From Actinomycetota bacterium (GTDB taxonomy: Bacteria > Actinomycetota > Acidimicrobiia > Acidimicrobiales > Ilumatobacteraceae): a stretch of 42,591 nucleotides of DNA. The stretch lies in contig VGCD01000015.1 in the NCBI GenBank assembly GCA_016870215.1, positions 1 through 42,591 on the forward strand, written 5' to 3'. Under the pieces are notes generated by a model. That model had not been told where the DNA came from. It saw only the letters and a list, made by a program, of their open reading frames with translations, and did no database searches. This document shows positions 42,314-42,591 of the stretch, in pieces (position 1 is the stretch's first letter; each line of letters starts with the position of its first letter). Position numbers and translations under genes: made by a program.

Positions 42314-42388
42314 GCGGGTGTAGCTCAATGGCTAGAGTTCCAGCCTTCCAAGCTGGCTATGCGGGTTCGATTCCCGTCACCCGCTCCA
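42314..42388 (+). tRNA. tRNA-Gly (anticodon TCC)
   Basis: Acceptor GCGGGTG (42314-42320) pairs with CACCCGC (42378-42384). The anticodon loop CTTCCAA gives anticodon TCC. The T-loop sequence is GGTTCGATTCC. Discriminator T is at 42385 and CCA is encoded at 42386-42388. One base later the ATG of the next gene begins. A possible promoter lies upstream (TTGGCT 42261-42266 and TATCCT 42286-42291), but its 19-base spacer is long. Confidence 0.96.
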
Positions 42389-42389
42389 T

Positions 42390-42591
42390 ATGACTGTGGC
42401 CCTCGTGCGTCGAACGAGTTCTCGTCTCGCTGAGGGACTGCTCACCCACATTGAACGACAGCCAGTTGACATTGACTTGGCGCGCGACCAGTGGGCTTCC
42501 TACGTGAAGACGCTTTCTGAGGTCGGGTGGAGCGTCGTTGAAGTTCCAGAACTTGAATCATGTGCAGACAGTGTGTTCGTTGAAGACACCG
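42390..42591 (+). CDS. Dimethylarginine dimethylaminohydrolase, 5' part (truncated by window end)
   Basis: An open frame from ATG 42390 runs off the window at 42591, giving the first 67 residues. The sequence MTVALVRRTSSRLAEGLLT, the HIERQPVDIDLA segment and the ending DSVFVEDT match the start of DDAH-type enzymes. The VFVEDT block is a hallmark: its Glu and Asp contact substrate. DDAH hydrolyses N-omega,N-omega-dimethyl-L-arginine to citrulline and dimethylamine; some relatives act on arginine or other guanidines. The catalytic His and Cys would lie beyond the window. The start codon is one base after the tRNA CCA, leaving no room for a Shine-Dalgarno sequence, so the message is likely made from the tRNA transcript. 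Confidence 0.88.
   Translation, partial: MTVALVRRTSSRLAEGLLTHIERQPVDIDLARDQWASYVKTLSEVGWSVVEVPELESCADSVFVEDT

Follow-up and report, generated by a model that had tools for sequence, protein, structure and literature searches.

The stretch analysed here (the window) is the entire 42,591-nucleotide contig VGCD01000015.1 of an Ilumatobacteraceae genome (2.0 Mb in 55 contigs; G000 below), and its end falls inside ddaH, a predicted gene for dimethylargininase (DDAH), whose coding frame directly adjoins a tRNA-Gly(TCC) gene on the same strand. This tRNA-ddaH junction is one case of a recurrent architecture, in which the start codon of a protein gene lies right at a tRNA end or no more than a few bases past it, and on balance the sequences make it probable that transcription reads through from the tRNA promoter into ddaH and that the ddaH message is freed by 3' processing of the tRNA. 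The junction is made up of the following elements:

42286..42291, plus strand: TATCCT, 22 nucleotides (nt) upstream of tRNA-Gly and probably the -10 box of its promoter, recognised from sequence only
42314..42388, plus strand: tRNA-Gly(TCC), with discriminator T at 42385 and encoded CCA at 42386-42388 (ARAGORN, Rfam RF00005)
42389..42389, plus strand: the single T that separates CCA from the start codon (bases read)
42390..42591, plus strand: the first 67 codons of ddaH, with its ATG at 42390-42392; the gene continues on the minus strand of contig C18

Both the bases and the ARAGORN call, which stops at 42388, confirm what a first-pass annotation of the window had noticed, namely CCA, then T, then the ATG of a DDAH frame; the start is 1 nt past CCA and 4 nt past the discriminator, where the Rfam match ends (42385). 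The identity of the frame is likewise confirmed. The last 28 bases of the window (contig C15 of the assembly) overlap exactly, and in the right orientation, with contig C18 read on its minus strand (C18 37820), and the frame joined across this overlap is complete with 254 amino acids (aa), passing the NCBIfam dimethylargininase model NF045660 over the whole protein (389.5 bits, cut-off 340) and matching the DDAH entries 3rhy and 1h70 of PDB over residues 6-250, so that by the family cut-off the gene is a predicted dimethylargininase. A pyrophosphatase-like open reading frame (ORF), named by eye, lies downstream of it. Between 42180 and 42591 no terminator-like sites were found (0.4 expected), a scan of these 412 bases for promoters of the sigma-70 type was equally empty (0.1 expected), and the promoter box TANNNT does not occur 6-8 nt upstream of the ATG at 42390 or of any in-frame GTG among the first 10 codons.

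How often tRNAs are abutted in this manner was counted in whole genomes from the number of bases that separate the first start codon of the next ORF from the discriminator (the spacing), admitting ATG and GTG starts and ORFs of at least 80 aa, or of 60 aa when open at a sequence end, as in the case of ddaH; starts in the 24 subsequent bins of 6 nt gave the background for a Poisson test of spacings 0-5. In G000 such a start follows 6/40 tRNAs, against 0.5 expected (12 starts in the 24 bins; P = 1.4e-5), the pairs being tRNA-Ala(TGC)-purU (spacing 5), tRNA-Pro(TGG)-PPOX oxidoreductase (3), tRNA-Gly(TCC)-ddaH (4), tRNA-Val(GAC) with an EamA gene (4), tRNA-Leu(TAG) with an alanine-racemase-like gene (2) and tRNA-Ser(GGA)-tadA (2). 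The six genes are mutually unrelated and all their proteins have a family match; a seventh ORF (L138), with a TTG start and without a Pfam match, was excluded from the count. A genome of another genus (G022) has six of 45 tRNAs abutted (33 starts in the 24 bins; P = 0.003), with a Pfam match for four of the ORFs and none for two. No excess was found in a third genome of the family, of 5.0 Mb (G038; 1/46 tRNAs, P = 0.79), nor in Streptomyces canus (1/45, P = 0.53), sampled as 45 distinct tRNAs out of 76 matches. The window thus holds two abutting cases, tRNA-Gly-ddaH and the following one:

33739..33812, plus strand: tRNA-Pro(TGG), CCA not encoded, discriminator at 33811 followed by CTC
33815..34207, plus strand: PPOX-class F420-dependent oxidoreductase, 130 aa, ATG 3 nt past the tRNA-Pro discriminator (TIGR03666, 100.4 bits, cut-off 84.9)

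In genome G084 (L187), a gene that resembles the PPOX one by eye starts as CC-ATG after tRNA-Pro(TGG). A small protein of 96-99 aa stands flush after tRNA-Leu(CAA) in two further genera (g4 and g20; L178, L182 and L318), with no Pfam match in the two tested (L178, L318), and an ORF similar to it by eye occurs in G000 (L147), 24 nt past tRNA-Leu(CAA).

The pair tRNA-Ser(GGA)-tadA was followed across the family, in 96 of the 144 genomes that gave a tadA hit (E 1e-30). In 58/96 loci, from 11 genera, there is an in-frame start (ATG or GTG) 2-4 nt past the tRNA-Ser(GGA) discriminator, the chance of an in-frame start at that position being roughly 0.07 per locus. Forty-seven of these have CC-ATG, the A of CCA doubling as the A of the start codon, and the other 11 have no encoded CCA and still keep the spacing of 2-4 nt (CG, CT, CTC, CTCG, CGG or CCC before the start). 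Of the loci that do not abut, 19 have the tRNA with the start further off and 19 have no tRNA-Ser found within 400 nt, at least two of the latter (L491, L510) being cut by contig ends and one of these (L510, of G002) showing a tRNA-like CC-ATG. None of 19 tadA loci outside the family abuts a tRNA. The TANNNT box 6-8 nt before the tadA start is absent from all 58 abutting loci and present in 21/38 non-abutting ones (11/19 with the tRNA further away, 10/19 with none found; Fisher P = 3.7e-11), and outside the family it occurs in 10/16 loci without a tRNA and in 0/3 with a tRNA further away.

For ddaH, the comparison comprised 69 family relatives, plus L039; the partial matches in G078 and G192 were left out, and little upstream DNA was available at L017 and L018. 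The tRNA-Gly(TCC) gene lies upstream of ddaH in 5/69 relatives, with the start at -1, -1, 5, 25 and 49 nt after CCA, and no tRNA was found in the available upstream DNA (up to 400 nt) of the other 64. CCA and the ddaH ATG share their A in G126 and G144, the junction of G144 (L017) having been read by eye in a contig that begins inside the tRNA. Within the genus of the window, 23 tRNA-Gly(TCC) loci were read (32 genomes), and at six of them the tRNA runs into a start codon as CC-ATG or CCAT-ATG, which belongs to ddaH in G126, to a DUF1330-type gene in G136, G197, G208 and G104 (assigned by Pfam in G136 and by common first residues in the other three, the frame of G197 being read by eye) and to an ECF-type sigma factor in G115; counting the window and G144, abutting starts are found at 8/25. 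In another genus (g3; L204, L205) a gene, polyketide-cyclase-like by Pfam in L204, starts 2 nt past the CCA of this tRNA. The first-pass annotation had proposed that tRNA-Gly output is coupled to the metabolism of arginine derivatives, and counted a conserved spacing of zero to three bases in relatives as support for its reading. Such a metabolic link is unsupported, because other genes (DUF1330-type, ECF-type sigma factor, polyketide-cyclase-like) occupy the site in related species; the lack of a detected tRNA before most family homologues of ddaH also speaks against it, and the spacing after CCA, with the value of 1 in the window added to the five above, is not conserved.

Some further observations concern the same tRNA. 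The ECF-type sigma gene of G115 (L163) and the DUF1330-type gene of G104 (L164) have the common start bases TATGACTGCTGAT after tRNA-Gly(TCC), as if the first codons had remained with the tRNA while the gene behind them was swapped. By eye, the upstream and downstream flanks of tRNA-Gly(TCC) are differently combined among species of the genus (L148-L166), as if recombination breaks fell within the tRNA. Genome G207 has two copies of the tRNA. In two genomes the tRNA is followed on the same strand, after about 2 kb, by a more distant ddaH: G043 (C2; L169, L024), with other ORFs between, and G172 (C91).

In Actinobacteria many transcripts begin at or near the start codon, as described in the parts of two studies drawn on here (PMC3848588, PMC4681348), and the distribution of TANNNT in G000 is consistent with such leaderless-type starts. 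Over 443 kb, with 1390 candidate starts, the box peaks at 6 and 7 nt before the start (43 and 30 candidates), falling to 13 each at 8 and 9 nt and to 0-5 elsewhere between 2 and 24 nt; at the level of genes, 73/331 have it 6-7 nt before the start, compared with 7 when a control distance is used. For 74 genes there is a Shine-Dalgarno-like 4-mer 4-9 nt ahead of the start, peaking weakly at 5-6 nt, a count that stands without a control. The abutting genes of the three family genomes have their boxes elsewhere: none of 13 has TANNNT 4-10 nt before the start, and 11/13 have it 9-34 nt ahead of the tRNA. Boxes are generally frequent in the 44 nt before tRNAs (34/40 in G000, 37/45 in G022 and 36/46 in G038, against shuffled expectations of 14.2, 8.6 and 8.4). 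Among ddaH homologues, 33/70 have the box 6-8 nt before the start, and the four closest relatives in which no tRNA was found (L010, L011, L012, L039) each carry TAGGCT or TAGCCT 6 nt upstream of the corresponding ATG; the four ddaH genes that start within 5 nt of CCA (the window, G126, G144 and G130) have none, a result not significant alone (P = 0.12). One caveat is that the tRNA occupies the place of the box, so that the absence of boxes at abutting starts is partly forced; the informative part is that the box is often present where the start stands away from the tRNA. Through this comparison, with boxes before the tRNA and none before the start, the earlier proposal that ddaH depends on the tRNA transcript and on leaderless initiation gains support, in the form that initiation would be leaderless or nearly so.

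From the sequences we infer the following mechanism. The ddaH gene would have no promoter of its own, and RNA polymerase would start at the tRNA-Gly promoter, with its -10 box at 42286-42291, and read through the tRNA into ddaH. The 3' processing cut of the tRNA would fall inside CCA or immediately upstream of it, the most probable place being between the Cs, which would leave 5'-CAU-AUG; the ddaH mRNA so freed, with a leader of about three bases, would be translated in the manner of leaderless messages, and CCA repair would complete the tRNA. The 3' end of the tRNA would in this way do the job of the TANNNT box at leaderless genes elsewhere. Whether the family makes regular use of tRNA 3' maturation as a step of expression we judge to be evenly balanced; a set of genes, among them the tRNA-editing gene tadA behind tRNA-Ser(GGA), would then have given up promoters and ribosome-binding sites, a cut inside CCA would make both a tRNA and a leaderless mRNA, and expression would follow tRNA output, as a bacterial counterpart of mitochondrial tRNA punctuation.

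The overlapping junctions bear on the site of the cut. Cleavage after CCA with a one-base leader, as the first-pass annotation had it, is unsupported because the A of AUG would be lost in ddaH of G126 and G144 and at the 47 overlapping tadA loci, and cleavage further on would likewise destroy the start codon there. If the cut fell between the Cs or after the discriminator, the leader would be 1-2 bases long at the overlapping junctions and 3-4 in the window, and the former site most likely applies, giving C-AUG and CAU-AUG, respectively. The first C (C74) is encoded by all 176 tRNAs examined (40 in G000, 45 in G022, 46 in G038 and 45 in S. canus), even those without an encoded CCA, which fits a cut after it. 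Differential RNA sequencing of Propionibacterium acnes and Streptomyces coelicolor, in the portions of the reports used here, places the cut of some tRNAs between the two Cs of an encoded CCA and that of others, including some of P. acnes, a few nucleotides downstream, and the authors consider repair by CCA addition possible for tRNAs cut between the Cs (PMC3848588, PMC4681348); P. acnes is described there as having no obvious tRNase Z, its cutting enzyme being unknown (PMC3848588). In G000 the RNase Z model reaches 30 bits against a cut-off of 293, a model that passes in just 9/14 control genomes, and for ddaH both the enzyme and the site of the cut are putative.

The same observations may be read in other ways. 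A promoter of a form other than TANNNT might lie inside the tRNA gene and start transcription at or just before the ATG, which would make ddaH leaderless and independent of tRNA maturation. Leaderless-type boxes directly before starts are common in G000 and are found in the close relatives of ddaH, but the lack of TANNNT in all 13 abutting genes and all 58 tadA loci, the empty scan for sigma-70 type promoters and the little freedom that a tRNA sequence allows for such a box render an internal promoter unlikely. Slightly less likely still, in our estimation, is that the start is translated on an uncut tRNA-mRNA, or on an RNA cut elsewhere, and that tRNA cleavage destroys the message. Where tRNA and gene overlap, the AUG would indeed be lost if the cut came after CCA or, as in some P. 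acnes tRNAs, a few nucleotides further on; however, the folded acceptor stem would end a few nucleotides before the AUG and leave no room for a Shine-Dalgarno helix, and other tRNAs have published cuts between the Cs, as far as the cited portions of those reports go.

The least probable explanation is genome compaction by drift, in which intergenic bases were lost until the gene abutted the tRNA and the gene is expressed only incidentally and weakly from the tRNA transcript. The small size of G000 (2.0 Mb), the lack of an excess in the 5.0 Mb of G038 and the varying partners of tRNA-Gly(TCC) between species agree with it, whereas the register of 2-4 nt kept by 58/96 tadA loci, together with the TANNNT box in 11/19 loci whose start is further from the tRNA, suggests that the way in which the message arises is under selection. 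We favour read-through from the tRNA promoter with release of the message by tRNA 3' processing. In the open literature searched, we recognised no paper describing tRNA cleavage as the origin of such mRNAs in bacteria. If the mechanism is true, a housekeeping cut of RNA processing would also create certain mRNAs in free-living bacteria, without a promoter or a ribosome-binding site, the peculiar cleavage reported in Actinobacteria between the two Cs of CCA would gain a use, and a bacterial model for tRNA punctuation of the mitochondrial type would be at hand; gene finders would also be alerted that a start codon overlapping the end of a tRNA may be genuine.

In animal mitochondria the genome is transcribed as long units, and tRNA-bordered mRNAs, almost leaderless, are freed by tRNA processing, which is known as tRNA punctuation. 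The likeness to the present case lies in a tRNA directly bordering the frame, an mRNA proposed to be freed by tRNA processing and a nearly absent leader; unlike in mitochondria, the bacterial cases are individual pairs of tRNA and gene set among ordinary promoters, with a cut that probably falls inside an encoded CCA. A tRNA and a protein gene share one transcript in thrU-tufB of Escherichia coli. Eight tRNAs of Corynebacterium glutamicum are co-transcribed with protein genes (PMC3890552; the part of that report available here does not give the spacing at the junctions), and these bacterial co-transcripts resemble the one proposed for ddaH in joining a tRNA and a protein gene. With the leaderless mRNAs of Actinobacteria (P. 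acnes, S. coelicolor, C. glutamicum and Mycobacterium) the predicted ddaH message would have in common a start codon at or a few bases from the 5' end of the RNA and no Shine-Dalgarno sequence, although those of P. acnes and S. coelicolor, in the cited portions of the work, were counted from transcription starts and not from tRNA cleavage. The cuts between the Cs (PMC3848588, PMC4681348) explain by their position how CC-ATG junctions could keep an intact AUG, while the parts of those reports cited here do not link them to the production of mRNA, as we propose. The proposed mechanism is a variant of known things, namely tRNA punctuation, leaderless mRNAs and tRNA-mRNA co-transcripts.
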